From Gemmobacter megaterium (lineage in GTDB: Bacteria; Pseudomonadota; Alphaproteobacteria; Rhodobacterales; Rhodobacteraceae): 64,000 nucleotides of DNA. Below are positions 5,412-31,800 of the stretch, one piece after another (the stretch's first letter is position 1; the number at the start of each line of letters is the position of its first letter). The stretch spans positions 33,259-97,258 of the forward strand of contig NZ_FTOT01000008.1 in NCBI RefSeq assembly GCF_900156815.1. Reading direction: 5' to 3'. Both the position numbers and the translations under genes were made by a program. The notes below the pieces were generated by a model. The model was not told where the DNA came from, made no database searches, and saw only the letters and a list, made by a program, of their open reading frames with translations.

Positions 5412-5472
5412 ATTCAGTATAAATTCACGTACCCTAAAAGGTTGGCATCGACAGAGATCGTAGGAGGAATAC

Positions 5473-5757
5473 TTGAAAATATTGTCTATAGGCGCGATTT
5501 ACCTCATCTCCGTCACCTCCATTTCTGCGGCTAGTTGGCAATTGAAGCAATGTAGTGACTTCGCTCCTGAGATTATTGGTGTTGGTGAGAAGCTTGACGC
5601 TATCATTGATCAAGCCATCGATCTCACTTTGTCACAAGGCGTTGACATCAAGTATGTCAACGATATCTCAATGTCGGCTATGATCATTGATGACGAACTT
5701 ACAAAAATTGTAAATTCAATACACCAGTTGTGTGCTGCTGTCGCAGAAGCCGAATAG
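5473..5757 (+). CDS. Small secreted protein, unknown
   Basis: 94 residues starting at TTG with a full AGGAGG seven bases upstream. Residues 1-19 form a signal peptide (hydrophobic core ILSIGAIYLISVTSISA, cut after SAA). The mature part is acidic and helical with two cysteines. Base composition is clearly more AT-rich than the phage structural genes, suggesting separate acquisition. It may be a periplasmic effector or immunity-type peptide; nothing specific supports either. Confidence 0.6.
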   Translation: MKILSIGAIYLISVTSISAASWQLKQCSDFAPEIIGVGEKLDAIIDQAIDLTLSQGVDIKYVNDISMSAMIIDDELTKIVNSIHQLCAAVAEAE

Positions 5758-6125
5758 TTTTCAATTCGATCTGAAGTTATTGTGGCATGGGAGAGAGGTT
5801 TCGAGGGTAATAGACTATCTGACGGCATTGTAGCGCCGGCCGAGAACTGGAAGCACTATGTAGGCGAGCGCGCTAAACGGCTGCCGGAATCCAGCAAACT
5901 GAAGAGCCAAAACCCCATCCGGTACCTTAACTGCTGAGCTGCTCTATGGGCGAGGATTACGAGGGGCAGGACATATTCTCGGCCACGCCTTCTGCTGCAA
6001 GAGCAGAAGGATTGCTCTCAGAGGGGGGGCTGCCGCCTGATTTGGAGTGCATAACTTGAACATATGACCGCTTGGAAGTACGTTAATAGCCAGAGGCCCG
6101 ATACCTTAAGCAGAGCGGAGCAAAA
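5758..6125. other. Gene-free stretch
   Basis: 368 bases without a supported gene. A segment around 5920-5950 looks vaguely like a tRNA D-arm on the minus strand but does not fold as a tRNA. The last part must contain the promoter of the HNH-type gene. Probably eroded DNA at a cargo junction. Confidence 0.4.
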
Positions 6126-14311: not shown

Positions 14312-17300
14312 CTAGTTGAAGATTGCCGGTGCCCTTTCGCTCCTGATCCGGTCGTTCAGCTTCGGGTTCAGCGAGACGCCGAACTCGTTGCGCTCGCTGG
14401 CCCGGATGCGCCCCAGCATCGACTGCCGCAGGGTGTCCGATGTGATCGGATATTCGGGGTAGCGCATGTTGAAGTCGCGGATTGCGTCGATCACGCCTTC
14501 CGGGATCGGCTGGCCCGACCGAAGGGCATCGCCTGCCTCACGGTGCAAGGATTTGCGCTCATCGGTGATGCGGCGCTCGACATTCCTCAGCCGGTTGTTG
14601 ATCCGATACCGCTCGGCCAGTTGCGCGGGTGTGAAGCCGCTGGCCTGCATGATCGCCTGATACGGGCTGACATCCTCGATCAGCGGATCGCCGTTGCGAG
14701 TGATTGCACCCTCGGTGCTGAACCTGCCAGCCTTCATCAGGTCGCGCACGGCCTTGGGCACTGCCGCCTCGATCCCGCGCCACCAGTCCCCATCTCCGAT
14801 GTAGTCGAGCCCTCGATAGAACCCCAGGGGAATGCCCGCGACCGGCCCAAGCAGTTCGCGCATATGGGCGTCGTAGAGATCCTGCCCCTCCAGATCGCGG
14901 TCATCCCCGCGGAACCACAGGTTTGGCATCCCGACACGCTCCGTCAGATCGGCGCCCAGAACCCGGCCAGGTACGCCGCTCATGGCCATGCCCATGGCAT
15001 AGTTCCAGGCCGCCACGCCGGGGGTGTCGCCCTCCATCAGCAAGGCATCCTGCAACCATTCCTCGGCATCGTCGCCCCCACCGGGGAAGAAGGCGCCAAG
15101 AAGCATCATCAGCAGGCCATAGCCCCATGTGCCGCGAATACCGGCATGGGCCATCATGGATAGGGTGATGCCGATCAACTGCGACCGGGCTTCTGCGCGT
15201 TCCTGCTTGCTGGCCCCGTGCAGTGATTGATGGGTATCGCGGAACAGCCGCCACAGCATGTTGACCACGAAGTTCTTCATGCTGGTCACGATGCGCGCCA
15301 GATCCCCTTGCATTGCGCGGGGACGGCTGCTGGACTGGTAGTCGAAATGCACCTCCCACGTCATGTCGGCTGCGGCATCGATCGCTGCCAGCCCGCTCAA
15401 CCCGTCCGCTTTGGCCAGCCGGTAGCCCGCAAGGAATGTCACCTCCCGGTTCAGGCGTTCGGCATGGTGGAACATCCAGCCGATCTTGCGCATGACGCGC
15501 TCACGCACCGCACTGTATTCCACGCCGGTTTCGGCCACGGCAGCAAGATCATGCGCCTGGGTCTTGTCGATGGTGCCCCGGCGATAGGCCTCGTTCAGCG
15601 CATCGCGTTCGTCTTGTGCCAGTCCTTCGGCATTGGCCGCGCTCCATGTCTCGCGCCAGTTGGCGCCGCGACCCTTGGAAAAGTCGCGCAATGCCCGCGC
15701 CAGTTCCGCTGATACGCCAGAGACGCCCGCCTTCCTGAACCGTGTCGCCATCAACGGGATGCCCACCACGGTCGTTTGCGTCAGGTTGGCGACCGCCGCC
15801 GCCGGTGTTGCGCCAAGATACCAGATGAAGGCGAGGTTGGTCAGGCCAGCCGCCCAGGCACTGGTCAGGGGCTCCATGGTGAAGTCGTGGCGGCGTTGCA
15901 TTTCCCGCACAACTGCCCCCATCCGGTTCGGATTGTCCGATTTGCGCGCCTCAAGCTCGGCCTCGTCCATGTGATCTTCCAGCAGGATGCCGTATTTGAG
16001 ACGGGCAAGCTGGTGCGCGCCATGGAACATGTGCTTGCCAAAGGCGCGATAGGCATCGCGGTTATAGCCAGCACGCCCCTTGCGATGGACCTTCGAGGTG
16101 CGGATCGAGCTATCCGGCAAGGTTTCCAACCACCGCTGCCAGACCGCATCCATCACTTCGAAATTGGCCCCGGACTCGGCCAGCACCTTTTCCACATCGG
16201 CAACGAAGGTGGGATCGACCTGTGACCGTAGCGCGCCCTTGTTCGAGACCAGACCATGCTGGACGCGACCGGGATGCAGTGCCTCCTGTTCACGAACGAA
16301 CGCCTGCTGCTGGCTCTCGCGCTCGAAGCGGGAGAAGGACATCACCTCGCCTTGCTCGTTGCGCACGGTGACAAAGTAGTCACCAAAGCGCGCCAAGGGC
16401 ACATAAGGCCCCTTCATCCGGTTCTGTTCGAACATCTTGCGCAGGGCCGTCAGGCGTGCCCGCGCCGCAAATCCACCGCGCGCCTTCACCGCATCCAGCT
16501 TTGCCTGTGCCTCTGCCAGCGCATCGGTTTTTTCCTGCCCGGTCAGACCCTCATCCTGAATCCGCCGGGCTTCCTTGTGGAAGGCGCGCTCGGCGCGCTT
16601 CAACCCGATCCGCGTTGCGTTTTGCAGGTTCTCCATCACCGCCTTGTCGAAGTCGTCCGCAATGGCGGTGTATTCGGCCAGCACCTTGCCATACATCGCC
16701 TTGAATGGCTCGGGCAGCGCATCATAGGCCCGCTTCAACTCCATGTGGGCCTCGGCTTTGCGGGCCGCGGCCTCCAGCGTGGCGCGTGCCCATGCCTCGG
16801 CACTGTCCCCGCGCCGGGACAGTTCCTCGCGCGCCCGTTGCAGCCAGACATGATCGGAGGGCAAAGGCTTGGAGGGATCGACCCCGGCCAGCGTGGCGCG
16901 GTGCATGAGGTCCATCATGTCGTCATTCGCCCTCGGGTCTTTGCGCCGCAGATCCAGCCATTCCTGCGCCACGGCATCCGCTCGGCCATGCCAGGCATTG
17001 CGCAAGGCATCCATTTCCTCCTTGGTCCGCAGATAGGCCCGCGCCGACACCAATCGCTTGCCAAGCTCCATGAACAGCGGGCGGCCCGGTACCAGCGAGA
17101 GCAGGTTGTATTCGCCATCGCGCCCCTTGCCGACCATGGCGTCGGTCAGGATCGAGGACACGAAGGCACCGGGTTCCTTCCAGTGGTGACTGCCAATCAG
17201 GCCCTTGGCCTTCGCTCCGCTGCGCATCAGGGCATCGCGCATTTCGCGGTCATCCATCCGCCCGGCACCCGGCCCATCCGGCCCGCGCCCGCCGACTGTG

Positions 17301-20300
17301 CCGCCCGCGATCCGCTCCATCACCAACGCAGGGGACACAAAGCCTTGACCGCGCAGCCCGGACGCAATGGCTTGCAGGAATCCCCGCACCTTGTTGAAGA
17401 TCCGCGCCAAGGGCCCAGCCGCATCGCGTGCAGTCGCCCATTCACGGTACATCTCGGCAACCGCCTCTTCGATCTGCACCGAAGTGACCTTGTCGCCATA
17501 GGCCCGCTCGACACGCGCCATCAGATCGGCATCGACCCGTGCAGCCCGGACCAGCGCCCGCCATTCCTCGGCGGTGAACAGGCCATAGGGCTGGCCCCAC
17601 AGGTCGGGATCGCGCAAGGCATGGACAATCTCATGCCGCATGACTCCGCGCGCATCCCGCGCCGCCGGGTTCAACTCGATCAAGGCCCCGCGCTGACGGC
17701 CCTGGATCGGTACGCCCGACGCCCCCAGCAGCCCGCGCACGACACGTGGCGTCACCTTGCCAGCCAGACCGGCCGCCGCAACCTCGGCCTCGGCCATCCG
17801 CGCAATGTCGCGCAGGGAATCCACCGGCACGGCGGCGGCGTTGATTTTCGGTGGTGCAAGCTGTAGGTTCAGCGTGTCGGCGCCGATTTGTAATTCTGGC
17901 TCCACGCGGGTCTCCCGCGCGTCCATCTGGCCTTGTGCCGGGGCGCCGATATTGCCGCCCAAGTTCAGGTCATAGAACATCCTGCCGTTGTCCATCTCGC
18001 GGATGACGATATGGATGGGCTCTTGGCGGCCGGCGACAGAAACCTGAGCCTGGAAATAGTGAATCTTGCGGACATGCGCGCGGCCGAAGCGGTCCTCGGA
18101 CTCGCCGGTTTTCTCCGCGCTTGCGACGATCTGTTCCAGCGCAGGCACGGCCCGCAGCAGATAGTCGAGCGGCTTCCCGCCGATCTTGCCCGCAGCGGCG
18201 CGCGTGAACGACACCTCCCAGCCCGTGGAAGTGTTCGTGACCTTCCTGCCTTGCAGGTTGTCGCGATACCACGCACGCGCCTTGCGTTGCAGATCAAGCA
18301 TGTCCTCCCACGGCCCGAGTTCGTCGCCGGTCAGGCGCGCGGCAGGTTCCTGATCATCAAAGCGGGATTCCTTGGCCTCGTCAGGCGCGTTCTCCGCCAG
18401 AAGGGCGCCTTCCAGTGCATCGACCTTTTCTGCCAGTTCGTTCAGCTTGTCCTGGTCTGCAAACCCTTTCAGCTTTGCCAGACCTTCCATCACATCGGCG
18501 CGCTCGCGCTCGCGCCGGGCAATATCGGCCTCGATCCGGCGCGGCGTGGCCTCGATCTTGGACAATGCCCCTTCGACCTTCCGGGCCATGCCAACCGGAT
18601 CCTCGGACCAGCCAACCATGACCTCGTTGTCGCGTGGCAGGGCGATATAGTAGGTCACGGCATTCATCGCGTGCGACACTTCGATGTGCAGCGGAAAGCC
18701 GGAAACGGTTCCGACCTTATCCTGATGTCTGAAACCCGTCCCGGCCAAGGCGTCCTCTGCGGCGCTGATCAGATCGGCGCCGAACTCCTTGCGCTCGGTA
18801 TAGGTCTTGCCGCCCATGCGCGCCTCGAAGGCATCGCCTGACAGGTCTTGTACCTTGGCGGCTTGCGGCTGCCAGAAGGTCAACTCCTCACGGTCCATTG
18901 CAATGGCGCGGCCCAGTCCGCGCGCCTTCGCCTCCATCTGCTGGCGTTCGCGCACCGCTGCCCCGGCCCGGCGCTGCAACTTGTCGCGCTCCGCCCGCAA
19001 CTCGGTCAGTTCCAGCACCCGAGGATCGGCGGTGGACATGGCTTTGGCTTGCTCATACTGGCTGGCCTCGCCAAGATCCTCCATGTCGCGCACATTGGGA
19101 TCGCCACGGAAGAACCCTTCGATGAACCCGGCCTTGCGCGCCATCATTTGCCACATGGTCGCGTCGTAGGTACCCTTGGCCGAGTAATCGAGGATTTCGA
19201 TTTCCCGGTTCATGTTGCCCTGCCGGATGCCGCGACCATTTCTCTGCTCGTCGTCGGCAGGGAACCACAACGGATCAAGGTTGTGGATCGCCGTGATGCG
19301 CCGTTGTGCATTGACGCCCGTGAACAGGGTCTTGGAACCGATCAGGATCCGTTTCTTGCCCTCGTTCATGTCATTGAACGCCCGCTGCTTGCGCGCATCG
19401 GATGTCAGATTCTCGGCCAGGATGATTTCGTCGGCTGGCACGCCCATGGCCACCAGTTGCGCCTTGATGAAGCGGTGAACCGAGAAGGACGGGTTGTGTT
19501 TCGACGGGTTCACGCCAAGGGTCGAGAACACCATTTGCGTGGTCGGGCCACGCATCAACGGTTCGTCGGTGTAGCCACCTTCCTTCTTCACCCCGTAAAG
19601 TGGGGCGTCGGCGCCTTCTTTCCAGCGGCGGTAGATGTTGTTGATCATCCGCTCCAGCTTGGAGTTGTTCTCGCCGGCGCTGGGGTCGACAAGGCGCATG
19701 TCGATGGCTGCAAGGCGACCATCGTTGATGACCGACAACAGGATGTCGTCACCCTTCTTCACCGGCCCCTTCCGATTTTCGATCATGCGCATCCGCGCGC
19801 CCAACTGCTGCTGGTACGCCTTCAGCTCGGGCGAAGCCTCCACCACGATCAGGTTGCGCTTGCCATCTTTCAGCGCAGGCCGGGTCACGTACTGTTCAAG
19901 GTCTTTCGACGACACCACATCCATGACCTGCCGCACCATGAGCGACAGTTCCGGGGTGTTCACGAACTTGGCGAAGCGCGTGACCAGCTTGTACCCCCCA
20001 TCGGGGGCTTGCTCCAAGGCGTTCTCCGTGGTGCCGAAGGTGGCTGCCCAGGAATCGAAGGCCGAGATGTTGCGATCATCCAGCGCCTGCGGCTGCAAGT
20101 ACCGGCTGATCGAATAGAGTTCCGCCATCGTGTTGGTAATGGGCGTGCCGGATGCCAGTACCAGACTGCGCCCCGGATTGCGTTGTGCAAGCGAGCGGGT
20201 CTTGATGAACAGGTCCATCGACTGTTGCGAGCCCTGCGGATCGACCCCCTTGATGCTGCCAAGGCTGGTGGCGAAGGATAGTTTGCGGAACAGGTGCGCC

Positions 20301-23300
20301 TCGTCCACGAACAACATGTCGGCGCCGGTCTCATCGAAATCGAACACGGCGTCCTTGCCCTTGTCCGAAGTTTGCCGTGCGATCCGCTGTTCAGCCGCCT
20401 CAAGAAGGGCCTCGATCTTCTTGCGGGTCTTGGTCTCCCCGCTGGTGATGCCCTTTACATCAACTCCCAGCGTGGCCGCCATGCTGTGGAGGGCGCCAAG
20501 AACGGAACGTTCCATCCCGGCATCCTCGCCAAACTGGCCGCCGCTCAGCCCTTCCAGAACATCGCGCACATCCTGCAACATGCCTTCGACGGCAGCTTTC
20601 TTGGATGCCTCCGATGCCGGGATCAACTGGAACGCAGAATGGGTGATGATGACCGCATCGTAGTCACCAAGCGCGGCATCCGCGACGAACTGCTTGCGGC
20701 GCGAGGTATGAAACCGCTTCTCGTCCGCGACCAGAACCTTCGCCAATGGGTATTGCTGATAGAACTCGGTGGCGAACTGGATCAGCATGTGGTTCGGCAC
20801 AGTGTACCAAGGCTTCCGTGCCAGCCCGAGGCGCTTGGCCTCCATGCCAGCGCCGATCATGGCGGAGGTTTTCCCGGCCCCTACGGTATGCGCCATGTAG
20901 GTATCGCCAGATTGCAGGATCCGGGCGATCACTGCCGTCTGGTGCGGGCGCCAACTCCAATCGGAATGGATGCCCGGCGTGGTCAGGTATTCGCCATCGT
21001 ATTTCGGCGCCACTTCCGCATTGAAGGTCCGGTTGTAGAGGGTTTCCATCTCCGCCGTTCTGGCGGGATCAGACCAGAACCAGTCGCGGAATCGGGTCTG
21101 CAATTCATTGGCCTTGTCGGTTGCTGCCTGGGTGGCTTCTTCATCGACCCAGGAGTCTGTGCTTCCATCCTGATTGCGGCGAGTTCGGCGCACCTCGACC
21201 TTCTTGTTCGCCATGACCAGCCCCATCAACTCGCCAAAGGGGCGATCCTCGGTGCCGAACTCCGAGGTGGCCTTCGCGCCGGTGGTGGTGCCGTTCACCA
21301 GCCAGATGCCAAGACGCGGTTTGAATTCGACCTGCAACTCCAGGCCAAGAGCCTCGGCAAAGTCCGGATAGATCGAGGTAGGAAACCAATGGGCGCCAAG
21401 CGGGACGGAAATGTCCTGCGCCGCGACGGGCGCGGGCTGCACTGCGCGCAAGGCATCGACGTTCGGCTGATACTCTGGGTTCGCCCGCGCCTCGCGCTCG
21501 GCTTCTTCCAGTTTCACCACCACGTTGCCAGACAGGTATCTCGCGCGGGTTTCCCACTCCCTTGTGCGCGGGTTCTGGAAGATCTTGCCTTCCAGTTCGC
21601 TGATCACCCGTTCCGATGTGCTGTTGGACAGCGCAGCAATCCTGCCGGGATCGACGCGCCCGGTTTCGCCCAGCAGGTGCAGAAGCGCATCCTCCGGGCT
21701 ATTGATCTGGGGCCGCGACGAAACCCTCACAGCATTCTCGGTGAACACGCGGGTTTTCTGCGCGGTATCCGTTTTCTCGTCGTACTTCTCGATGGCCAGA
21801 AGGCGATAGGACTCGGGGTCATCCATGAACGGGTCGATATTCGGCCGCGTCACGATGATCTTGTCGTCCATGGCTTCTGGCGCGAATGTGCCCTCACGAT
21901 AGCCGGGCGCCTGTCGTGCTTCCTGCCGTGCCCGCGCGATTTCCGCCATGGACGCGCCCGCCTCGATCATTGGACCGGCATCGAAGCTGCCAATATCGAA
22001 GGGTTCACCAGCGGCGCGGGCATCGTTCTCGGCCTGTTGCCGCGCGCTCTCCTGCTCCACGATGCTAGGTCGTTGCGTGCGCCTATGCTGCAAGCCGATA
22101 GGGCCACGCTCCTTCACATAAGCATCGTAGGAATCATTCAGCGCCTTGCGGGCGGCGCTCGCATCCTTCCCATCCACATCGGCGGCGTACACATCGCGCA
22201 GTGCGTTCTTGATCGGGATCAGGGCTTTCACCGCCTCCATGGCGGCTTTCGGCATCCCCTTGGTGTTTTCGCGGCTGCGCGGCTCGACCTTTCGGCCCGT
22301 ATTGCCGTCGAACAGCCACAGGGCGCCATCCTTCAGGTAGAATGAGCCAGGCTTGGTCTCGGCGTGATCGGCGTCCAGCGCGTCCAGTTTCACCGATTCC
22401 GGTGGGGCCGACATGATGTTGCTGGGAAACTGCGACAGGACCGATTTGAGGTCGGCACGCAGATCGGCGTTCGGGCGCGGGCGCACACCAACGCGCGCCC
22501 CGGCGGTGAGTGTGTCATAGAGCCCTTGTTCGCCAAGGATCATATCGGGATTTTCGATGAAATAGCGGTTCACCGCCGCCTGTCCAGTGGTGCCGTCACT
22601 GCCGGGAAGGTCGATCACCTCGGACTGGCGCCATGCCGGATTGGCCTCGGCCTCACTGTCCACGCGCTTGCGCAGCACGATGATGTCGGTAGTGACTTCG
22701 GTTCCATTTTCCTTGAAGGCTGTATTGGGCAGCCGGATTGCACCGACCAGATCGGCCCTGTCAGCCAGATAGTCGCGTGCCTTGCTGTCCATCTTGTTCA
22801 TGGTCCCTGCGGACGTGATGAACATGAGAACCCCGCCTGGGCGCACGGCATCCAGCGATTTGGCAAAGAAATAGTCGTGGATGAAGAACCCTTGCGGGTA
22901 GTCGGGATCGGCCTTGATCTGTGTTCCGGCAAACGGAGGGTTGCCGATAACCAGATCGTAGAACCCTTGCGGCAGCTTCTCCTTGATGAAGTCGCCGTTC
23001 TTGATGTTGTGCCGGGGGTACAGGGCTGCCGCGATCTGGGCAGTGATATGATCCAGCTCCAACCCGGTGTAGGTGGCGTTCAGGCTTCCGGGCATAGTGC
23101 CAGCAAAGCCGCCGACCCCCATTCCTGGCTCATAGACGCGCCCGCCGGTGAACCCAAGCTGCTGGGCAAGTGTCCACATGCTCCGCAGCGCGGACTCTGC
23201 GGTATAGAAGGCGTATTGAGAGGTGCGCGAAAGGGTTGCCCGCTCCTCGGGCGTTGTCATGGTCTCGATTTCAGCGGCCAGATCGGGAAAACGGATGGTG

Positions 23301-26300
23301 CCATCGCTGCGCGGAAGGGTGCCCGCCAAGGTGCCGGCGCCGCCATATTTGGCGAGGGTCGCGCGTTCCTCAGCCGTCGCCGGACGACCCTCTTGCTGGA
23401 TGGTGCGCAGGGTGCGGATCGCCGCAATGCTCTCTCGTGCGCGGGTCTTTTCCCCGCGCGCCAGTTCAAGCCCGCCGGGCTCGATGACGTGGTTTACTGG
23501 TCCTCGCCCGCCAGTGCCGTTTCCAGGGCCAGAGCCATCGCCACTTCTCTGACCATCACGTCGCGGGCCGGATCGTTCTCCGGTACGTTCTGCAACGCGA
23601 TTTCCTGGTCTGCCTGCTGTACGATCATCCGAACGTAGGCTTCCAGCTTGTCCGGTCCCCGCTTGGAGATCTCCCGCGCCTTCTTGGGGGCTCGGTCGAT
23701 CATCGCTTGCATTATTGCGGTTATCATCGCGGCGGTTCTCCGGTTCGGCATCGACGCCAACATTACGGGATTCCGGCTCAGAATGCACCTTGCTTTGCGA
23801 TGCTTCTGCCTCGGCCATCGCGCGGCGCACCTCGTCCAGGACGGCCTTGGCATCGTCCATGTCCGACACGTCTTGCCCGTCGAGGTCCATGGTATCGCGG
23901 ACATGATTGTAAGCGGCGCGCATCGGAGCCTGGGCTTCGCGCATGGTCAGGCCGGTGCTTTCCGCAAAATCACGCAGCATCTGTCCGAACCGCTTGGTTC
24001 CGGCCTCGATGTAGAGCCCGACCAGTTCCGCCCCGAGGGTGATGTATTCCGGGTCAAGCCCGCTGCTGGTCTGATTGCGCGCTTTGGCTGCAAGGCGTGC
24101 TTTCAGTTCGTCGGCACGCTTCTGCTTGTCCTCCGACAGGGCAGAGAGGATGCCGCTTGCAGGCTTGCGCCTCTGTGCCCCCGCCGATTCCGGCCCGAAG
24201 ATCGCTGTGCGCAACGTTTCCATCTGCTCGCCGGTAAGGCGATCAGCCACCTCGCCGGAGGTCAGTCCTGTTGAGACGGTCGTGTCCAGCCCGGCATTTT
24301 TCAGGGCTTCGCGCCGCTGGTCGCGGTTGTTGGTCCACCACCAATCAAAGCGGCGCGGGCCGGTGGGCTGCGGGCTGATTGGGACAGGTGCATCGCTGGC
24401 CTTGCTGCCCACAGGCGTTTCCCTGCGCGCTGCTTGTTCAGGCTTGCGGGCATCAGCAATCACGGACTCGATCTTGGCCTCGTCCACATTGTGGGTGCCA
24501 GCGAAGATCTGGCGGCCTTTCGGGTCCGTGATCGTGGTGCGATTGACCTGGCGCTTCACCACATAGCCATCATCGGTCACGCGGGCCTGATCGGTTGTCG
24601 GCTCCCCGAATGCGTCTCTGGTTCGTTCGTAGCCAGACAGCAGATCGCCAAGACCGACCGCAGGTTTCTGTCCTGCAATCTGATAGGATGGTGCTTCAAT
24701 GGTTCCGGTGTTTTCCAGCGTCCCGGCGCGGTACAGTCGCCCGAAGGCATCGGTCAGCGCGCGCTTACCGTCATCCGACAATCCATCCCACGCCATGCCT
24801 TGCCGATACTCGCGTTCCGCCTTTGGCCCGGCTTCCTTCAGGATCGCATCCCGCATCGCCTTGTCGGCATTGTCCCACCATGGGGCGCGGGTCGGGGTCG
24901 GCGCGGCTTGCAGGTCGATACCGGCAACCTTGGCGCCAGCCTGACGCACATCAGCATCGTCCTGCGGCGTGATGATTTCGCCATCCAGCGGCTTGGCCTC
25001 GGGGCGGCGCACCTCATATGCCCGTTCGCCATTCGGAAGGTCGACAAGGCGAACATCATAGCCCTTGCGCTTGAGCCCATCATAGAACGCCCGGCCATCT
25101 TCGGTCAGTTCGTAGCCAGAGAGGAACCGCCAGCCGCGCTCTGCGGCATATTCGATGGCCTTGTCATGCAGTGCGGTCGAGACACCCTGACGCTGCATGT
25201 CCTCGCGAACCTCGGTCACGTCAGCTTGCAATGTCTTGGAAGCTGCGTCGGGGAAGGCAATCATGGCAGCATCACCGAGGCGGAACGCCACGGAGTGCTC
25301 CCCTTCGTTCTCGACCTTCACATCAGCGGCTCCTGGACGGCGCGGCTGGGATGGCCCGGTATCGACAATGCGCGTCTTGCCGGTCTGCAAGCTGTTGAGG
25401 ATCAGGACGCCGGGCGTGCCCTCTTTCGGCGCAGGCTTCGGCATGACTGCATCGCGCACCTTGTCAGCGTGCTTGCGGGAAAAGATGAAGCCGCCTTCCT
25501 TGTCGTCCCATTTCAGGCTGACACCGGAAACAGCCGGCGGCTGATCCTTCGGAACCCCGCGCAGGACTGCGGCCTTTTCGCGGATGTTTTCGATGACAGG
25601 GGAGATGGATTCGGACGAAGCCGGGGGAGGGGAAATTTTCCCGCCTGCCTTTGCCTTTCCGCTCACCGGCGTGTCGGTCTCGCCAGAATCCAGCCATGCC
25701 TTGAACTCGGGCAGCGCCATCTTGCGGATGCCGCCGATGCGTGCGGCCCCGCGCCCGTCGCTGAACCCGGCCTGATAAGTGGCCTTGGCATCTGCCGGGG
25801 TGTCGAAGCCCAGCATGACTTTATGTTCATCGAACGTGCCGCTGTCCGGGTCGATCTGATCCACCACCCAGACGGACTCGCTGGCAGTGTTCGGCCCCAT
25901 GTAAAAATCCACATGGTCGCCATCGGCGCCTGTCGTGCGCAGGATGCGGCCATACTCGGCCGGCATCGTCACCTTCCATTCGGTGCCGTCGGGCGAGGTG
26001 CCCTTGCGCTCGCTGCCCTTGGCGTTTTCAATGGAAAGGCGCATCCCCTGCCAGTCGATCTTCGCCGTCTTGTAGTTCTCGGCCTCCTTCTGGGCCGGGG
26101 TCGGGTCAGGGTTGGTCTCGGCGGCTGCGGCCTCGAACTGTTCACGGGTGGGCACCGGCTTTTGAGGCTCATTCGTTGGCGGCAATGCCGTTTGAGGATC
26201 ACCTTGGGCCGGTTTGCTGTCAGCAACGGTAGTAGGCTTGCGATTCAGGCTTTCCAGATGCTCGCGCGCCGGCACAGCCTCATATTTCGCGGTGTTCAGG

Positions 26301-28963
26301 GCATCGACCTTTTTGCGGTCGAATGTCTCCATGACGGTTTCGCCGGTCTCCCGGTTGCGAATGACCCAGCTTGCGCCCGGCCCGGCCTGCTCATCGGTCA
26401 AGGATTGCTTGACGGTTGCAGGCTTGGGCAAAGGCGCCACCCGGTCCAGTTCCTGCAAGGCACCGCGCATCCGTGCGGCGATGGTGTCGCGGTCCATGCC
26501 ATCGGTGTCGATTGTATAGTCCAGATCGCTGCGACCATTGGGGGTCGCCCGGATCACAATCTTGTTCGGGCGGATCAGAACATCGCGCCCCTCAAGCGTT
26601 GTGTCGTCGCTGCTGCGGCCAGAGGCCACGCCCAGAACGCGCCCCCATTCCCGGCGCCGCCGCTCTTTTGCCGCCATGTCGGCTTCCGTGACCGACTTGC
26701 CGCCAAGCATATCGGGCTGGACACGCTGCTCCGGTGGCGTGCGGATCGGCTCGACAGTCGGGCGCGGGCGGGTCGGCGCGGCCTCTGGCTCGGTGCCGGG
26801 ATCGGTGATCTCCCCGGTGTCCTGGTCAAACTGCGGGGCCGTCTCCGCGATTTTGCCCAAGGCGTCGTATTTGCGCTTCATCGGCCCAGTCCAGCCGCCT
26901 TCGCGCGCACGATCTTCCATCTGGCGCATCTGCCTGATCGCTTCATCAGGCGTGACAGGCTGCTTTGGCTTCTTTTCCTTGGGCGGCTTGACCTTGCCCA
27001 ATGCCTGTTGGGACAGTGCCTCGGTTTCCGGCGCGGCGGGCAGGGTTTCCTGCGTTGGCGACGGCATGGGCGTGGATTGCGCCGGTGCGGGCTTGGCTTC
27101 CGATTCAGCGGCTGGTTGTTGCGCGGTCGGCTGTTCCTGATCCTTCGGCTTGCTCTTGGTGGCCTGTTCCGCGGCCTTGTCCATGTCAGCCGCCTGACGG
27201 CGCGCAGTATCGAATGCCACCGGGTCGAGGTCGATTTCGACGCCATCAACGCGGATCACTACATTACCGTCCGGTGTTTCGCGCTGGAATACCACATCGC
27301 GGACGAGCCCGGCCTCGTCGTCATAGACACGAACGGCCCCGCCGGGCTTCTGGTCAGGGAACATCTGTGGTGCCGGAACCGGCTCCGGTTGGGGCGTCAG
27401 ATCAGGTGCGAGGCGCGCCGCAGCCTCGATGGGTCCGGCAGGAGGGATTTCGTCGACCGCCGCGCCCACACCGGAGGGAGAACTCACCGGAGGGGAATCG
27501 GGCGCGGCGGTCTGCCCCCCGGCGCTGCCATCGCCGGGGTATGCGGATTGCGGGCGGAAACCTGCTGGCTGGGATGCTGGTGGGGTTCCATCAGGGGCGG
27601 AAGCGCCATCTGCGAAGACCGTTCCTCCATCAACCGGCGATGGAAGCTCCAACATCGGTGCCGGAAGGGCCAGCATCGGTGTGGGGGCTTCCGGCTCCGG
27701 CTGAGGCTCCTGCTGCGGACGGCGGGCGCCAAGCGCGCCCATGGGTCCACCGGCCAAAGCACCCGCAGCGGCAGCCTCGATCGCGCCTTCGGTCGGGTTC
27801 AAGCTGGTCCCGGCACCTCGGTTGATCCCGATCCGGGCGCCAGTGCTTTCCAGACCTTCTTGCAAGCCTTCCTCGGTCGCGCCAACGGCAACACCTCGGG
27901 CGACGTTCCCGGCAAGACTCTTTCCGGCAAGGCTTTGCGGCAGACCCTTGGCCACAAGCCCGCCGGTAATGGCGCCACCGGCGCCGCCGATCATAGCCTG
28001 AATGTCACCTGCGGCGTCCATGGCGCGGCGCCGGGTCTCTTGATAGGCCGCATTCGGGTCCATGCCCTGCGCGGTCAATTCGCGGAACACATCAGACTGC
28101 CGGGCTAGTTCCGGCGTGCCGTCCTCGCCCTTGGCCTTCCACAGATCGTCAATGACCTGCGCGGCGGTTTCACGGCCTTCTCCGCCCGCCATCGCCCCGC
28201 CGACACTGGCTGCGGCAAGGCTGCTGCCACGAGTAGCAATGGCCGTGGCGACGACAGGGGCAAGGCTTCCAAGCCCCTCTGCGCTGACCTGTGCCAGACC
28301 GCGCCAGGAGAAGTCCTCCGGCGCCTTCCATGTCGATGGATCAAGCGGGTCACCTGTCGGCAAGGTCTTTTCCGAGGCTGCCCGCGCCTCTGGCGAAACC
28401 GCCGACAGGATGCCCTCGCCAGCACCCTTCACGGCTTTGCTCGCGGGGTCGGTGAGGCGGGTTGCGACAGCCCCCAAAGGCTCCTGTCGGCCAGTCGCGG
28501 CTTGAATGATCCGCTGCGCAGGATCGGAATTCAGGGCACGGTCGGCCAGGTTTCCGGCGTAGTCGATGGCCCCGCCAACGCCGCGCACTGCGGCACCAAG
28601 CGCCCCGGCGCCAAGGTCTTTGACCAGCGATGGGCCATCTTTGGCGGTCGCGGCCTTTGGCTGTGGATCAAGCTCGTCCGCGATGCGATAGGCCACATCC
28701 AATAGATCGTCGCCGCCCCGCTCACGAAGCACGTCCTCGATCCCGCGCCCGGCTTTCACCTGTGCCGCCATCTCGGCAGCGAGGGCTTCTGCGCGCGCCT
28801 CGCTGCGATCCTTGTCAGTGGACAACACAGCCAGAATGGCGTTGGCAGGGATCCGATGCTTCGCAGCGATCCGGTTCAGCGATACTTTCGGATCTGCATC
28901 AGCACTCTGGCGCTTGGCGCCCAGTGGTTGCACCAAGTCGCCAGCAAAGATGTTTCCTGCCAT
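14312..28963 (-). CDS. Giant 4883-residue polyvalent virion protein (PLxRFG family)
   Basis: Uninterrupted 14.65 kb gene. Approximate layout: residues 1-420 helical with Gly/Ala-rich membrane-active segments; 420-720 Pro-rich linker; 965-1088 an inorganic-pyrophosphatase-like domain (DGDHVDFYMGP); ~1210-1310 a GNAT-like domain (RQGVSTALHDKA); ~1840-2110 an N6-adenine methylase (EPGMGVGGF at ~1948, NPPF at ~2008); ~2650-3330 an SF2 helicase (Walker A VGAGKT ~2696, VDEAH ~2888, QRNGRGIRQ ~3243); ~3778 a zincin motif HEIVH; ~4189 PLARFG, the PLxRFG signature; then long helices with hydrophobic stretches near 4388 and 4610. This is the polyvalent-protein architecture described for phage proteins delivered with the DNA. 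It lies last in the ejection-protein run, so delivery into the cell and protection of incoming DNA are the likely role. The activity of each domain is inferred. Confidence 0.93.
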   Translation of the reverse strand: MAGNIFAGDLVQPLGAKRQSADADPKVSLNRIAAKHRIPANAILAVLSTDKDRSEARAEALAAEMAAQVKAGRGIEDVLRERGGDDLLDVAYRIADELDPQPKAATAKDGPSLVKDLGAGALGAAVRGVGGAIDYAGNLADRALNSDPAQRIIQAATGRQEPLGAVATRLTDPASKAVKGAGEGILSAVSPEARAASEKTLPTGDPLDPSTWKAPEDFSWRGLAQVSAEGLGSLAPVVATAIATRGSSLAAASVGGAMAGGEGRETAAQVIDDLWKAKGEDGTPELARQSDVFRELTAQGMDPNAAYQETRRRAMDAAGDIQAMIGGAGGAITGGLVAKGLPQSLAGKSLAGNVARGVAVGATEEGLQEGLESTGARIGINRGAGTSLNPTEGAIEAAAAGALAGGPMGALGARRPQQEPQPEPEAPTPMLALPAPMLELPSPVDGGTVFADGASAPDGTPPASQPAGFRPQSAYPGDGSAGGQTAAPDSPPVSSPSGVGAAVDEIPPAGPIEAAARLAPDLTPQPEPVPAPQMFPDQKPGGAVRVYDDEAGLVRDVVFQRETPDGNVVIRVDGVEIDLDPVAFDTARRQAADMDKAAEQATKSKPKDQEQPTAQQPAAESEAKPAPAQSTPMPSPTQETLPAAPETEALSQQALGKVKPPKEKKPKQPVTPDEAIRQMRQMEDRAREGGWTGPMKRKYDALGKIAETAPQFDQDTGEITDPGTEPEAAPTRPRPTVEPIRTPPEQRVQPDMLGGKSVTEADMAAKERRRREWGRVLGVASGRSSDDTTLEGRDVLIRPNKIVIRATPNGRSDLDYTIDTDGMDRDTIAARMRGALQELDRVAPLPKPATVKQSLTDEQAGPGASWVIRNRETGETVMETFDRKKVDALNTAKYEAVPAREHLESLNRKPTTVADSKPAQGDPQTALPPTNEPQKPVPTREQFEAAAAETNPDPTPAQKEAENYKTAKIDWQGMRLSIENAKGSERKGTSPDGTEWKVTMPAEYGRILRTTGADGDHVDFYMGPNTASESVWVVDQIDPDSGTFDEHKVMLGFDTPADAKATYQAGFSDGRGAARIGGIRKMALPEFKAWLDSGETDTPVSGKAKAGGKISPPPASSESISPVIENIREKAAVLRGVPKDQPPAVSGVSLKWDDKEGGFIFSRKHADKVRDAVMPKPAPKEGTPGVLILNSLQTGKTRIVDTGPSQPRRPGAADVKVENEGEHSVAFRLGDAAMIAFPDAASKTLQADVTEVREDMQRQGVSTALHDKAIEYAAERGWRFLSGYELTEDGRAFYDGLKRKGYDVRLVDLPNGERAYEVRRPEAKPLDGEIITPQDDADVRQAGAKVAGIDLQAAPTPTRAPWWDNADKAMRDAILKEAGPKAEREYRQGMAWDGLSDDGKRALTDAFGRLYRAGTLENTGTIEAPSYQIAGQKPAVGLGDLLSGYERTRDAFGEPTTDQARVTDDGYVVKRQVNRTTITDPKGRQIFAGTHNVDEAKIESVIADARKPEQAARRETPVGSKASDAPVPISPQPTGPRRFDWWWTNNRDQRREALKNAGLDTTVSTGLTSGEVADRLTGEQMETLRTAIFGPESAGAQRRKPASGILSALSEDKQKRADELKARLAAKARNQTSSGLDPEYITLGAELVGLYIEAGTKRFGQMLRDFAESTGLTMREAQAPMRAAYNHVRDTMDLDGQDVSDMDDAKAVLDEVRRAMAEAEASQSKVHSEPESRNVGVDAEPENRRDDNRNNASDDRPSPQEGAGDLQAGTGQAGSLRSDDRTAGRPGNRVAERTGERSGPRRDGQRSGDGSGPGNGTGGRGPVNHVIEPGGLELARGEKTRARESIAAIRTLRTIQQEGRPATAEERATLAKYGGAGTLAGTLPRSDGTIRFPDLAAEIETMTTPEERATLSRTSQYAFYTAESALRSMWTLAQQLGFTGGRVYEPGMGVGGFAGTMPGSLNATYTGLELDHITAQIAAALYPRHNIKNGDFIKEKLPQGFYDLVIGNPPFAGTQIKADPDYPQGFFIHDYFFAKSLDAVRPGGVLMFITSAGTMNKMDSKARDYLADRADLVGAIRLPNTAFKENGTEVTTDIIVLRKRVDSEAEANPAWRQSEVIDLPGSDGTTGQAAVNRYFIENPDMILGEQGLYDTLTAGARVGVRPRPNADLRADLKSVLSQFPSNIMSAPPESVKLDALDADHAETKPGSFYLKDGALWLFDGNTGRKVEPRSRENTKGMPKAAMEAVKALIPIKNALRDVYAADVDGKDASAARKALNDSYDAYVKERGPIGLQHRRTQRPSIVEQESARQQAENDARAAGEPFDIGSFDAGPMIEAGASMAEIARARQEARQAPGYREGTFAPEAMDDKIIVTRPNIDPFMDDPESYRLLAIEKYDEKTDTAQKTRVFTENAVRVSSRPQINSPEDALLHLLGETGRVDPGRIAALSNSTSERVISELEGKIFQNPRTREWETRARYLSGNVVVKLEEAEREARANPEYQPNVDALRAVQPAPVAAQDISVPLGAHWFPTSIYPDFAEALGLELQVEFKPRLGIWLVNGTTTGAKATSEFGTEDRPFGELMGLVMANKKVEVRRTRRNQDGSTDSWVDEEATQAATDKANELQTRFRDWFWSDPARTAEMETLYNRTFNAEVAPKYDGEYLTTPGIHSDWSWRPHQTAVIARILQSGDTYMAHTVGAGKTSAMIGAGMEAKRLGLARKPWYTVPNHMLIQFATEFYQQYPLAKVLVADEKRFHTSRRKQFVADAALGDYDAVIITHSAFQLIPASEASKKAAVEGMLQDVRDVLEGLSGGQFGEDAGMERSVLGALHSMAATLGVDVKGITSGETKTRKKIEALLEAAEQRIARQTSDKGKDAVFDFDETGADMLFVDEAHLFRKLSFATSLGSIKGVDPQGSQQSMDLFIKTRSLAQRNPGRSLVLASGTPITNTMAELYSISRYLQPQALDDRNISAFDSWAATFGTTENALEQAPDGGYKLVTRFAKFVNTPELSLMVRQVMDVVSSKDLEQYVTRPALKDGKRNLIVVEASPELKAYQQQLGARMRMIENRKGPVKKGDDILLSVINDGRLAAIDMRLVDPSAGENNSKLERMINNIYRRWKEGADAPLYGVKKEGGYTDEPLMRGPTTQMVFSTLGVNPSKHNPSFSVHRFIKAQLVAMGVPADEIILAENLTSDARKQRAFNDMNEGKKRILIGSKTLFTGVNAQRRITAIHNLDPLWFPADDEQRNGRGIRQGNMNREIEILDYSAKGTYDATMWQMMARKAGFIEGFFRGDPNVRDMEDLGEASQYEQAKAMSTADPRVLELTELRAERDKLQRRAGAAVRERQQMEAKARGLGRAIAMDREELTFWQPQAAKVQDLSGDAFEARMGGKTYTERKEFGADLISAAEDALAGTGFRHQDKVGTVSGFPLHIEVSHAMNAVTYYIALPRDNEVMVGWSEDPVGMARKVEGALSKIEATPRRIEADIARRERERADVMEGLAKLKGFADQDKLNELAEKVDALEGALLAENAPDEAKESRFDDQEPAARLTGDELGPWEDMLDLQRKARAWYRDNLQGRKVTNTSTGWEVSFTRAAAGKIGGKPLDYLLRAVPALEQIVASAEKTGESEDRFGRAHVRKIHYFQAQVSVAGRQEPIHIVIREMDNGRMFYDLNLGGNIGAPAQGQMDARETRVEPELQIGADTLNLQLAPPKINAAAVPVDSLRDIARMAEAEVAAAGLAGKVTPRVVRGLLGASGVPIQGRQRGALIELNPAARDARGVMRHEIVHALRDPDLWGQPYGLFTAEEWRALVRAARVDADLMARVERAYGDKVTSVQIEEAVAEMYREWATARDAAGPLARIFNKVRGFLQAIASGLRGQGFVSPALVMERIAGGTVGGRGPDGPGAGRMDDREMRDALMRSGAKAKGLIGSHHWKEPGAFVSSILTDAMVGKGRDGEYNLLSLVPGRPLFMELGKRLVSARAYLRTKEEMDALRNAWHGRADAVAQEWLDLRRKDPRANDDMMDLMHRATLAGVDPSKPLPSDHVWLQRAREELSRRGDSAEAWARATLEAAARKAEAHMELKRAYDALPEPFKAMYGKVLAEYTAIADDFDKAVMENLQNATRIGLKRAERAFHKEARRIQDEGLTGQEKTDALAEAQAKLDAVKARGGFAARARLTALRKMFEQNRMKGPYVPLARFGDYFVTVRNEQGEVMSFSRFERESQQQAFVREQEALHPGRVQHGLVSNKGALRSQVDPTFVADVEKVLAESGANFEVMDAVWQRWLETLPDSSIRTSKVHRKGRAGYNRDAYRAFGKHMFHGAHQLARLKYGILLEDHMDEAELEARKSDNPNRMGAVVREMQRRHDFTMEPLTSAWAAGLTNLAFIWYLGATPAAAVANLTQTTVVGIPLMATRFRKAGVSGVSAELARALRDFSKGRGANWRETWSAANAEGLAQDERDALNEAYRRGTIDKTQAHDLAAVAETGVEYSAVRERVMRKIGWMFHHAERLNREVTFLAGYRLAKADGLSGLAAIDAAADMTWEVHFDYQSSSRPRAMQGDLARIVTSMKNFVVNMLWRLFRDTHQSLHGASKQERAEARSQLIGITLSMMAHAGIRGTWGYGLLMMLLGAFFPGGGDDAEEWLQDALLMEGDTPGVAAWNYAMGMAMSGVPGRVLGADLTERVGMPNLWFRGDDRDLEGQDLYDAHMRELLGPVAGIPLGFYRGLDYIGDGDWWRGIEAAVPKAVRDLMKAGRFSTEGAITRNGDPLIEDVSPYQAIMQASGFTPAQLAERYRINNRLRNVERRITDERKSLHREAGDALRSGQPIPEGVIDAIRDFNMRYPEYPITSDTLRQSMLGRIRASERNEFGVSLNPKLNDRIRSERAPAIFN

Positions 28964-29059: not shown

Positions 29060-31075
29060 TCAGTTCTTTCGAAGCAAGGGGGGTGGGTCCGATGCTGCGG
29101 ATTGCCCGGCGCTCGGGAAGGCGCGGCGGGCTTCTTCGAGTGCAATATCGAAGGTGATCGGGGACTGCTGTCCGGGAAGGACATTCTTGCCTGCCTGCTC
29201 GAAAATCATCTTCGCCACATCGAAGATGCGCTTTTCGCGATCCTTCTCAGCCGCCTTCGCATCATCACGCGCTGCCTTTTTCGCTCCAAGCGCGGCCTCG
29301 TTGGCGGATTTGATCCTGGCTGCCGTCTCGGTGAAGGCATTGAGGGGATCGGCGGCAGACAAGCCAACCATGTATAGCTGGTTCGGATCGTCATAGACAC
29401 GTTCGTAGGTATCGCCCGTAGCCTCGTTGCGGAAGGTGATGACCGCGCCATTCACTGCCCCGGCCTCATCCATGGTAAACCGCGATTGCTCAGGCACGAT
29501 GGTCGTTCCATCGTTGTAGTAGCCCAGCCGATTGTAGGCCGCGATGAAGTGTCTGCCAAAGGTCTCCATGTCCTGCTCGCCTGCGGCGACGACCATATGG
29601 ACATAATCCTTCATCGCGCGCTTGGTCTCGGCGGTCTGCATGAACTCCTGAAACTTCACCGCGCGGTCGATGTCGCCGTTCCTGACCATCGCCTCGATCA
29701 GCTTGGGTACGACAGTGGTTGTGTACCGATCCATTGCAGAGGTTGCCGCGCGGTCTCGCTGCTGGGACGACAACGGCTTGCGGTCGGACGCGCCGAGAGG
29801 GGCGCCGCCTGCCTTTTGCGCCTCCTCGACTGCGATTGCGGCGGCTGGCCCTACAGCCTGAGCCGCTTGTGCAACTTCCTTCTGCCTGGCTGCTTCGACG
29901 GTCGGACCAAGGCGCGCGCCCGGTGTCGCCGTGTCATTGGGTAGGCTGGCCGGTGGCGCGGGTCGTGCACCCAGGGGTGCATCTGGTGCAGGGGGCGAGG
30001 ATCCGGCCAACTGATCAATCACACTGCCCGGCCCGAACGGAGCATCCTTGACCAACGGGACTTCTTTTCCGGTCGCGTAGCGCACCAAGGGGTTGATTGC
30101 ACGATTTACCGCATTGGCGGCGCCACCCAGCATGGGCTCGATCACCCCCTTGTCCACGGCCTCGTTTACGCCACCGACGACAGCCCCAGCCACACGCGGC
30201 GCTCGAGTGACAAGCTCCGCAGCATCACCCATCATCCCGCCATCTTGCCCGAACTGATGATCATAGTTCGGCTGCATGGCCTTGGCCCAGGCATCAGCGC
30301 CCGGCTTCAAGGCCGCCTTAACACGGGCACCAAGGCTTGGCCTCTGTTCCGGCATCGGCTGAACGCCTGGATCAATCTGGCGATCCGGCGGAATGAAGCG
30401 GGCGCCGACCGGGCCTTGCTGATGGAGCTCATCGGCGATTGCGGCGGAAGGCGCAGGTGCGACCAATGTTCCGTCCTGAAGGCGCGGCAGGCCAGAAACG
30501 GGGTCATGTCCGGTTTGCGAAGGCGGTACCGGAGGCAGGGTACCGGCGCCAATCTGCCCGCCCATCACATCGGAACCTGCACCTCCGGCAAGCGTGTCGG
30601 CATCCGCACCGCCAGCCTGTGTCTGCTTTTTCGCCCCAAGGCTTTCCAAGGGCACGGCACGAACAAACGCATCAGCCGCGCGCGTCGGTGCGCCAACCAT
30701 AGGGAGATTTGAAGCCACGCCAGCGACCGCAGCCCCGGCCTCCGGGGTGCCGGATTTCGCCGCAGGTGGGCGGGCACCGAGGGACGCGGGCGCCTCTGGC
30801 TCCGCCATGCCTTCCTGCATGATACGGCGATACTCTTCCTCATTGGCGGCCTGTCGCCGCGCTGAGTCCAGCGTCAGCTTGTCGGCATCGAGACGCACAC
30901 GGCGCCCTTGCATGTCCAGGCCGTGGGCCTCGGCAGCACGTCCTTCCCGGCTTTCGAGGATCTGATCCATGCGCTTTTGACGCTCGATCTGGTGCTTCCG
31001 ATCCTCGCGGCCATCACGGTACTCACGGCCCTTGAAGAACCCATCGACAAACGCCGAAAATCCATATGTGCTCAT
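29060..31075 (-). CDS. Internal virion (ejection) protein
   Basis: 671 residues from the ATG at 31075, which overlaps the lysozyme stop (ATGA). The frame extends upstream but without a ribosome site. A charged N-terminal helix (EYRDGREDRKHQIERQKRMDQ) leads into a long low-complexity Pro/Gly/Ala region with five LGA(R/K) motifs, then a helical C-terminal third. Low complexity, length and position between the virion lysozyme and the giant protein fit a podovirus core/ejection protein of the T7 gp15/gp16 kind. No enzymatic motif seen. Confidence 0.7.
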   Translation of the reverse strand: MSTYGFSAFVDGFFKGREYRDGREDRKHQIERQKRMDQILESREGRAAEAHGLDMQGRRVRLDADKLTLDSARRQAANEEEYRRIMQEGMAEPEAPASLGARPPAAKSGTPEAGAAVAGVASNLPMVGAPTRAADAFVRAVPLESLGAKKQTQAGGADADTLAGGAGSDVMGGQIGAGTLPPVPPSQTGHDPVSGLPRLQDGTLVAPAPSAAIADELHQQGPVGARFIPPDRQIDPGVQPMPEQRPSLGARVKAALKPGADAWAKAMQPNYDHQFGQDGGMMGDAAELVTRAPRVAGAVVGGVNEAVDKGVIEPMLGGAANAVNRAINPLVRYATGKEVPLVKDAPFGPGSVIDQLAGSSPPAPDAPLGARPAPPASLPNDTATPGARLGPTVEAARQKEVAQAAQAVGPAAAIAVEEAQKAGGAPLGASDRKPLSSQQRDRAATSAMDRYTTTVVPKLIEAMVRNGDIDRAVKFQEFMQTAETKRAMKDYVHMVVAAGEQDMETFGRHFIAAYNRLGYYNDGTTIVPEQSRFTMDEAGAVNGAVITFRNEATGDTYERVYDDPNQLYMVGLSAADPLNAFTETAARIKSANEAALGAKKAARDDAKAAEKDREKRIFDVAKMIFEQAGKNVLPGQQSPITFDIALEEARRAFPSAGQSAASDPPPLLRKN

Positions 31076-31800
31076 TGCGGCTGGCCTCCGATTGCGCCTA
31101 GCGCCCGCGGGCCGAACGATCCGCCGCCGGCCTCGAACTGTGCGATTGCCTGATCCAGGTGCGAATCCGGCACATGTTTGAACCCTTCCCATTCCGCGCG
31201 CATGGCAATGCGTTTCGCAGCCGGGCTCCGGGCTGATGACAAGCGCTTGCGGGCCAGATGCTCTGCGATTGCCGTCTGTGTCTGTGGGCTGAATACGGTA
31301 TCGCCAGACAGACCCATCTCAGTCGCCGCATTGCGCAGGGTGGTGCCGACGATCTGATACCGGCCCATGGGGGTGGCAACACGCCCGACCTTGCCTTTCA
31401 CCCATTGGCCATATTCGCCGTTCGGGTCCGCGAAATCTCCAAGCTGCGCCAGTGTCATCCTCGACACGTCGATTCCATGGAATCGCCCGCCATTCTGCGA
31501 ATGCCCAAACAGGGTGGAGAAGCTGCCGCCACCTTCAGTCTGGTCGATCAGGCCAAGCAGTGTTCCATCGCCATTGACTGGCGTGCGCGGCGCGGCGCCA
31601 AGGGTATCGGCGCCAGCACTGCCCATCATGTTGCCCATACCGCCGCCGCCGCTGAGCAGTTCGGTGTCGGGACGTGCGCCAAGGGCGGTGATAAGCCGGT
31701 CTTGGCGTTCGGCGTCGGCCAGCCGTTCGGCCCGATCCTTTCGCTTTATCCGCGCGCTTGCAAATCCTTCGGCAAAGGCACCGAGACCTGCGAGGCTCAC
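31072..31800 (-). CDS. Virion-associated lysozyme-like muramidase
   Basis: 242 residues, GTG start overlapping the previous stop. After a linker with one LGARP motif, residues ~80-210 form a lysozyme-like domain: LLGLIDQTEGGG with the probable catalytic Glu89, GRYQIVGTTL and DTVFSPQTQTAIAEHL, as in phage muramidases. Unlike the endolysin it is encoded among the internal virion proteins, so it likely opens the wall locally during DNA entry. Confidence 0.78.
   Translation of the reverse strand: MSLAGLGAFAEGFASARIKRKDRAERLADAERQDRLITALGARPDTELLSGGGGMGNMMGSAGADTLGAAPRTPVNGDGTLLGLIDQTEGGGSFSTLFGHSQNGGRFHGIDVSRMTLAQLGDFADPNGEYGQWVKGKVGRVATPMGRYQIVGTTLRNAATEMGLSGDTVFSPQTQTAIAEHLARKRLSSARSPAAKRIAMRAEWEGFKHVPDSHLDQAIAQFEAGGGSFGPRALGAIGGQPQ

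Follow-up and report, generated by a model that had tools for sequence, protein, structure and literature searches.

The DarB protein of phage P1 is a virion-borne antirestriction protein concerned with type I restriction (PMC5512222 and the accessible part of PMC12810830). In the accessible part of their 2017 paper (PMC5512222), Iyer et al. described the dyad of a methylase and a SWI2/SNF2 helicase, together with InPase, zincin and LPD domains, in polyvalent proteins, with orthologues of diversified architecture in Helicobacter prophages, and it was proposed there that the SWI2/SNF2 motor travels along the entering DNA while the methylase modifies that DNA, and that the zincin frees the domains through self-cleavage. 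For Burkholderia phage JC1, gp61, gp64, gp68 and gp69 appear in the virion-protein table of purified virions, gp69 with 51 peptides (accessible part of PMC9144972). Here we describe a gene in a 64,000-nucleotide stretch of a Gemmobacter megaterium contig (NZ_FTOT01000008.1, positions 33,259 to 97,258 of the forward strand; hereafter the window), which belongs to an element that we read as a temperate, podovirus-like prophage. Its product joins the DarB-like polyvalent proteins as a new member, with an HsdM/TaqI-like N6-adenine methylase and a SWI2/SNF2-type helicase, and the ends and the middle of this protein differ in ancestry. The DarB dyad and the polyvalent kind were already known from P1 DarB, JC1 gp69 and Iyer et al.; what is new is the organization into a frame and a cassette. 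We think it probable that, in this polyvalent protein of the DarB type, a conserved frame (the N-terminal domain, the zincin, LPD39 and the PLxRFG end) surrounds a methylase-helicase cassette of other ancestry that was likely exchanged, and that the protein, as predicted from its relatives, is packaged, ejected with the DNA and likely active in antirestriction. The parts of the gene are given below in window coordinates.

14312..28963, minus strand: giant DarB-type polyvalent protein gene, 4883 amino acids (aa)
27704..28963, minus strand: N-terminal frame domain, residues 1-420 (profile)
26144..27703, minus strand: proline-rich linker, residues 421-940 (composition)
25691..26095, minus strand: InPase (type I pyrophosphatase-like), residues 957-1091, DGDxxD at 1014-1019 (Pfam, 1e-50)
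17846..25438, minus strand: block with ancestry unlike the ends, residues 1176-3706 (best two-breakpoint fit against P0121/P0122, 44% identity inside, 79% outside)
25127..25273, minus strand: possible GNAT, residues 1231-1279 (Pfam, 7e-4, below cut-off)
23804..24166, minus strand: joint-like conserved segment at the 5' edge of the cassette, residues 1600-1720
22421..23461, minus strand: helical part (LPD36 position) and gamma-class N6-adenine methylase, residues 1835-2181
18884..21046, minus strand: SWI2/SNF2-type helicase, residues 2640-3360 (profile matches, motif residues)
17972..18304, minus strand: LPD3, residues 3554-3664 (Pfam, 1.6e-26)
17294..17839, minus strand: zincin metallopeptidase, residues 3709-3890, HEIVH at 3777-3781
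16529..17158, minus strand: LPD39, residues 3936-4145 (Pfam, 2.5e-68)
14354..16411, minus strand: PLxRFG (tail-700) end domain, residues 4185-4870 (NCBIfam NF032893, 673.4 bits against a threshold of 100)

Two protein searches scored 1344 and 1331 candidates, of which 1022 and 432, respectively, were relatives, and the best 120 of each made up a comparison set of 225 distinct proteins, the query included. By BLAST by segment and by sliding identity, P0121 and P0122 match the ends of the query closely (N-terminal domain 76-78%, zincin 78-80%, PLxRFG end 84% identity), and their identity in the middle is 44-45% for the methylase and 52% for the helicase. The reverse was found for P0002, which is 86-87% identical in the methylase and helicase and 48-60% in the zincin, LPD39 and PLxRFG. 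Among the matches listed, P0121 and P0122 are thus the nearest relatives of the ends and P0002 is the nearest relative of the middle, and against P0002 the best two-breakpoint fit set off residues 1816-3411 (85% inside, 51% outside). A third block, at about residues 3540-3700 with LPD3, is closest among the matches listed to P0123, at 65-95%; P0123 gave no match to the DarB methylase or helicase. Trees were made from 40 rows (4 named rows and a random draw of 36 from the remainder of 55) by a quick LG+G4 search. The methylase tree groups P0001 with P0002, and the LPD39-PLxRFG tree groups P0001 with P0121 and P0122, each with a Shimodaira-Hasegawa-like approximate likelihood ratio (SH-aLRT) support of 100. 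The approximately unbiased (AU) test rejected the grouping of P0001, P0121 and P0122 on the methylase (difference in log-likelihood 118, p 0.00024), that of P0001 and P0002 on the frame (403, p 0.0022), and that of P0002, P0141 and P0144 on the methylase (456, p 2e-5). The methylase and frame trees are incompatible, and since the ancestry of the middle block is unlike that of the frame, this block was likely swapped between phages.

The cleanest case of exchange lies outside the query's group, in the Klebsiella phages LASTA and ZX1, which are 93% identical over 8.4 kb upstream of their giant genes. When the proteins were compared in 100-residue windows of LASTA, the identity was 91-98% over residues 1-300, 15-27% over 301-600, 58-100% over 601-1500, 17-35% over 1501-3300 (where windows with fewer than 40 aligned residues were omitted) and 49-88% over the remainder to the end. 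The LASTA cassette is shared by phage SopranoGao (90-100% over residues 1501-3300). In LASTA the order is methylase and then helicase, as in the query, whereas in ZX1 a helicase of the Strawberry-notch type precedes a methylase, after which comes a weak GNAT. Lastavirus phages resemble the query in their LPD39 and PLxRFG end (about 40% identity in PLxRFG); LASTA and ZX1 differ from it by an N-terminal SLT domain and by giving no InPase match. The accessible part of PMC9505181 states that the PLxRFG protein of ZX1 is significantly different from those of the other three, the manner being unstated in that part. A second variable stretch was seen near the N-terminus, at LASTA residues 301-600, where ZX1 and SopranoGao each differ from LASTA (15-27% identity).

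The joint-like segment, residues 1600-1720, has counterparts at LASTA 1368-1465 and ZX1 1431-1528 and is also found in SopranoGao; the DNA similarity between LASTA and ZX1 spans this counterpart and ends at about LASTA residue 1499. The segment was found in 125 of the 225 proteins, 15 of them without a DarB-type helicase, and in the comparison with P0121 and P0122 its residues 1620-1670 stand out at 70-90% identity, with dissimilar sequence on both sides. The segment may serve as a handle for recombination, or it may just be a domain that evolves slowly.

Across the whole comparison set, pairwise identities were correlated between methylase and helicase (rho 0.95, n=136) and between LPD39 and PLxRFG (0.62, n=131), and more weakly for the zincin with PLxRFG (0.41, n=125) and for the N-terminal domain with PLxRFG (0.30, n=86), while no correlation was seen of PLxRFG with the methylase (0.01, n=55) or with the helicase (0.04, n=82). 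The N-terminal domain profile matched 115 of 143 PLxRFG proteins and none of the 82 proteins without PLxRFG; it matched 54 of 56 PLxRFG proteins that gave no BLAST match to the DarB-type helicase and 61 of the 87 with it, although distance is a confounder because the profile was trained outward from the query. Among those 56 proteins, 11 carry models of the Strawberry-notch type in the Pfam column, 45 carry neither type of helicase, and 52 have InPase; a search of the 225 proteins seeded with the ZX1 helicase brought up no relative. Of the proteins that lack the DarB-type helicase, 13 were chosen for a closer look; all of these have LPD39 and InPase, and the rest of their content varies, with LPD1 (7), LPD5 (6), LPD3 (5), LPD37 (3), the Strawberry-notch helicase (3) and N6_Mtase (2), and ParB, PBECR3, ART and GNAT each occurred once. 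We also examined 34 genome loci, including those of Paracoccus, Frigidibacter, Sagittula and Thioclava strains and of metagenome-assembled Cypionkella and Sediminimonas. The same virion-gene homologues lie upstream in loci with the DarB-type core (e.g. L089, L092 and L097-L099) and in loci without it (L091, L093, L095 and L115), and a homologue of the 319-aa virion protein described below lies within 6 kb upstream of 30 of 52 complete PLxRFG frames, some of which are duplicates or short. L089 is from Paracoccus hibiscisoli and L091 from P. onchidii, both cultured. As side observations, PF00990, which we take to be GGDEF, stands in the Pfam column of the DarB-bearing giants P0050, P0110 and P0111, and PF14528, presumably LAGLIDADG, in that of P0110 and P0153, while P0054 is named a LAGLIDADG homing endonuclease by a source; inteins or homing elements inside the giant genes of P0054, P0110 and P0153 are possible.

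It could be argued that an ordinary DarB-like protein was inherited vertically and that the uneven identity reflects differences in rate between domains. Within the list from the core search alone, the distances do agree (methylase-PLxRFG rho 0.57, n=36; helicase-PLxRFG 0.52, n=35; methylase-zincin 0.63, n=61), and the C-terminal list shows a slight helicase-PLxRFG link (0.16, n=61). The loci hold 42 distinct complete giants that form 30 pairs with a C-terminal identity of at least 68%, and the same core was kept in all 28 of the pairs that were aligned, 27 of them non-independent pairs among eight Rhizobiaceae-type loci (Agrobacterium, Rhizobium, Sinorhizobium, Shinella and Ciceribacter), where no exchange was seen, and one of other phages. 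Exchange as a universal behaviour of these genes was accordingly rejected. These results weigh against our preferred explanation, and so do several others: the groups submitted to the AU test were picked with the identities or the other tree already known; P0002, P0121 and P0122 are represented by one contig each, so that chimeric assembly of single cases is possible; the predicted model of the C-terminal end is weak (predicted local distance difference test score, pLDDT, 67.8); no 19-residue window of the giant protein exceeds a hydropathy of 1.4, which leaves the step across the envelope without support in the sequence; and neither BLAST nor a profile matched JC1 gp69 to the PLxRFG end, so that the JC1 virion data are no proof that the frame of the query delivers. 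Nevertheless, several results speak against rate differences: the discordance is reciprocal, with shared groupings rejected by the AU test in both directions; 56 of 143 PLxRFG proteins lack a DarB-type helicase match; and the block is wholly different in ZX1 and LASTA next to nearly identical upstream DNA. We therefore consider purely vertical inheritance unlikely and prefer the exchange of a cassette within a conserved frame.

The gene itself is a single frame from ATG to stop, as the sequence-only reading of this DNA had claimed (4883 residues, 14.65 kb), and its ATG is preceded by an AAGGGGG stretch; MAGNIF is the consensus start in an alignment of 16 rows of chosen relatives. Because the longest stop-free run in 20 shuffles of the same bases was only 275 codons, a frame of this length is not due to chance, and the protein aligned to homologues along most of its length. 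The G+C content by codon position did not separate the gene from a 1224-aa frame on the opposite strand inside it, and the long opposite-strand frames are read as shadows of the giant gene by homology, not by composition. The same reading had called the protein unusually large. This was rejected, since the median length of 87 PLxRFG proteins with the DarB-type helicase, the query included, is 4689 aa (range 2708-6435 aa, in a search bounded at 0.55-1.75 times the query length), and the counterparts in isolated phages are similar (JC1 4515 aa, LASTA 4433, SopranoGao 4369, ZX1 3867). In phage records, of which 73 have PLxRFG, such genes are labelled hypothetical protein, PLxRFG protein, methylase, transglycosylase or DarB-like. 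In the kin of the host the gene is rare: PLxRFG was found in 1 of 61 genomes and LPD39 in 4 of 198, its own genome being included in both counts.

The protein has at least two unrelated enzymatic domains in one chain, encoded beside packaging and virion genes, and a gamma-class N6 methylase with NPP(F/Y) adjoins a SWI2/SNF2-type helicase in the same chain. It matched the DarB-like antirestriction family phrog_10089 with 2498 bits in four stretches, the best being residues 1748-3667, while the Pfam scores were 30.1 bits for the Eco57I methylase (cut-off 25.3) and 23.9 for Helicase_C (cut-off 23.5). All nine motif strings named beforehand were found in the order claimed, at residues 1014, 1258, 1945, 2008, 2694, 2886, 3240, 3777 and 4189. 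Counted in rows with a BLAST alignment over more than 60% of the module, which favours query-like rows, the residues conserved were N2008 (137 of 137) and P2009 (125 of 137) in the methylase; K2698 (167 of 168), D2887 and E2888 (168 of 168), H2890 (151 of 168) and R3244 (140 of 140, with a gap in 28 more rows) in the helicase; H3777, E3778 and H3781 (each 164 of 164) in the zincin; and D1014, D1016 and D1019 (148, 121 and 148 of 148) in the DGDxxD motif of the InPase. Of these residues, N2008 and K2698 are predicted to be catalytic. A domain counterpart of the InPase is the C-terminal part of the portal in PDB 9b41. The model of residues 1830-2593 (32 sequences, mean pLDDT 80.6) resembles M.TaqI, type I HsdM subunits and type ISP enzymes, and its aligned part includes the N-terminal helices, which fall onto the HsdM N-domain. 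LPD36 has been placed at the N-terminal helices ahead of the methylase, with a GXG(G/A/S) motif (PMC5512222); no LPD36 model was among the Pfam hits of the query, and G1875 and G1877 are invariant in the 16 chosen rows. No nuclease or target-recognition domain was found, residues 2182-2640 being barely covered. Profiles, motif residues and the methylase model thus bear out the earlier assignment of a polyvalent protein with pyrophosphatase-type, methylase, helicase, zincin and PLxRFG parts. The GNAT-type segment fared less well, with 20.1 bits against a cut-off of 30 and a presence in 2 of 225 proteins, the query included. The polyvalent concept had been rightly invoked, but DarB was not named and the mosaic of frame and cassette was not seen, and the stress laid on the combination of methylase and helicase was misplaced, because this dyad defines DarB and was described in PMC5512222. 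Linkers lie at residues 421-940, 1720-1830 and 3360-3540. In the first of them, residues 864-908 (window 26240-26374) are 80% identical to a stretch of Pseudomonas phage F116 and also match phrog_25603; they appear to be a mini-module common to distant phages.

Compared with the query, P1 DarB (L123:10469-17236) has the same order of methylase and SWI2/SNF2-type helicase, with pieces at 22-32% identity, but it is 2255 aa long against 4883, and of 12 query segments tried only the methylase and the helicase matched it. Its methylase motif is NVPF, in contrast to NPPF in the query, which makes it worth asking whether P1 DarB methylates. JC1 gp69 is DarB-like and has a similar gene order, and its core aligns to query residues 2406-3666 at 36% identity. 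F116 gene 60 (L137:9100-14049) has the PLxRFG end and HExxH motifs and matched neither the DarB methylase nor the helicase.

The same strand upstream of the giant gene encodes two virion proteins, of 710 and 319 aa, with an endolysin-like protein between them, then a GNAT protein, tail-fibre proteins, an internal virion protein, the major head protein, the portal and the terminase; genes for a repressor, an exonuclease and a RecT-like protein come farther on, and an amidase gene lies about 0.9 kb past the end of the giant gene. Four of these neighbours are given below.

29060..31192, minus strand: 710-aa virion protein, JC1 gp68-like, directly upstream (phrog_9667; 25% to the JC1 gp68 region, 5e-6)
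31072..31800, minus strand: 242-aa endolysin-like protein (phrog_14527, phrog_90; no Pfam match)
31797..32756, minus strand: 319-aa virion protein, JC1 gp64-like (phrog_8003; 38% to the JC1 gp64 region)
40026..42728, minus strand: 900-aa internal virion/head-closure-like protein (phrog_511; 33-39% to the JC1 gp61 region)

Ahead of the giant gene come, in this order, the genes for products resembling JC1 gp61, gp64 and gp68. The description of the gene as lying beside ejection genes thus holds loosely only: the neighbours are virion genes, three of them like JC1 proteins found in virions. By analogy with these relatives, the giant protein is predicted to be a virion protein. Alternatively, the methylase could chiefly modify the host chromosome or work in the lysogen without being delivered. 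The gene does stand within a prophage, and the same prophage has its own MT-A70-type and C5-type methylase genes (window 53218-54117 and 55481-56629). However, the giant gene has virion genes as its neighbours and forms part of the late virion module, and in JC1 the homologue of the core is carried in the virion (accessible part of PMC9144972); such a role is therefore very unlikely. In the host genome, one contig carries genes for type I HsdR and HsdM with about 2.5 kb between them, and N6-methylases are encoded at three further loci. To the left of the late module, window 68-6971 holds defence-like genes of either host or phage: one encodes an AIPR/MzaE-like protein, another a C5 DNA methylase, and there is a weak match to HNH.

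Another possibility is that the core acts on transcription or replication of host or phage, with the SWI2/SNF2 motor freeing polymerases, the InPase clearing pyrophosphate, and methylation being regulatory instead of antirestrictive. There is a similarity to the N4 virion RNA polymerase family at residues 223-411 (phrog_2206, 8e-9), InPase is kept in 52 of the 56 PLxRFG proteins that have no DarB-type helicase, and this role for InPase was raised by Iyer et al. (accessible part of PMC5512222). In contrast, no polymerase domain was among the Pfam hits of the giant protein, and the closest characterized relative, P1 DarB, is an antirestriction protein (PMC5512222; accessible part of PMC12810830). 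We give this explanation little credence.

Under the preferred reading, an antirestriction protein delivered with the DNA, the frame would bring the protein into the particle and across the envelope; a membrane-spanning frame or membrane channel was considered for this and dropped on the hydropathy result. Inside the cell, the zincin might cleave the chain, perhaps at the proline-rich linkers, the SWI2/SNF2 motor would follow the entering DNA, and the HsdM-like methylase would mark adenines ahead of type I-like restriction, while the InPase, as a guess, may clear pyrophosphate or a nucleotide signal. The incoming phage DNA would thereby be shielded from the restriction enzymes of the host, as in known relatives. 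Since frame and cassette seem to be separable, a lineage could change its antirestriction payload without rebuilding the delivery part. A wider proposal, which we regard as possible but short of probable, is that the locus is a cassette-exchange gene with an arrangement comparable to that of polymorphic toxins: a fixed delivery frame with a cargo bay, having a conserved joint of about 100 residues at its 5' edge, into which methylase-translocases of the DarB or Strawberry-notch type, or unrelated effector blocks, are interchanged, thereby retuning what is injected in the first minutes of infection. In the literature searched, from which most subscription journals were out of reach, no description of such an exchange of frame and cassette was found; the accessible part of Iyer et al. 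(PMC5512222) does not treat separate ancestry of frame and cassette within one gene, and the words "swap" and "shuffl" are absent from its main text.

If frame and cassette are separable, the conserved ends would be candidates for a packaging and ejection signal, and the middle would be each phage's means against the restriction systems of its hosts. A giant hypothetical protein would then become a delivery part and a payload, which could be removed and assayed separately, and pairs such as ZX1 and LASTA would serve as ready-made natural comparisons.
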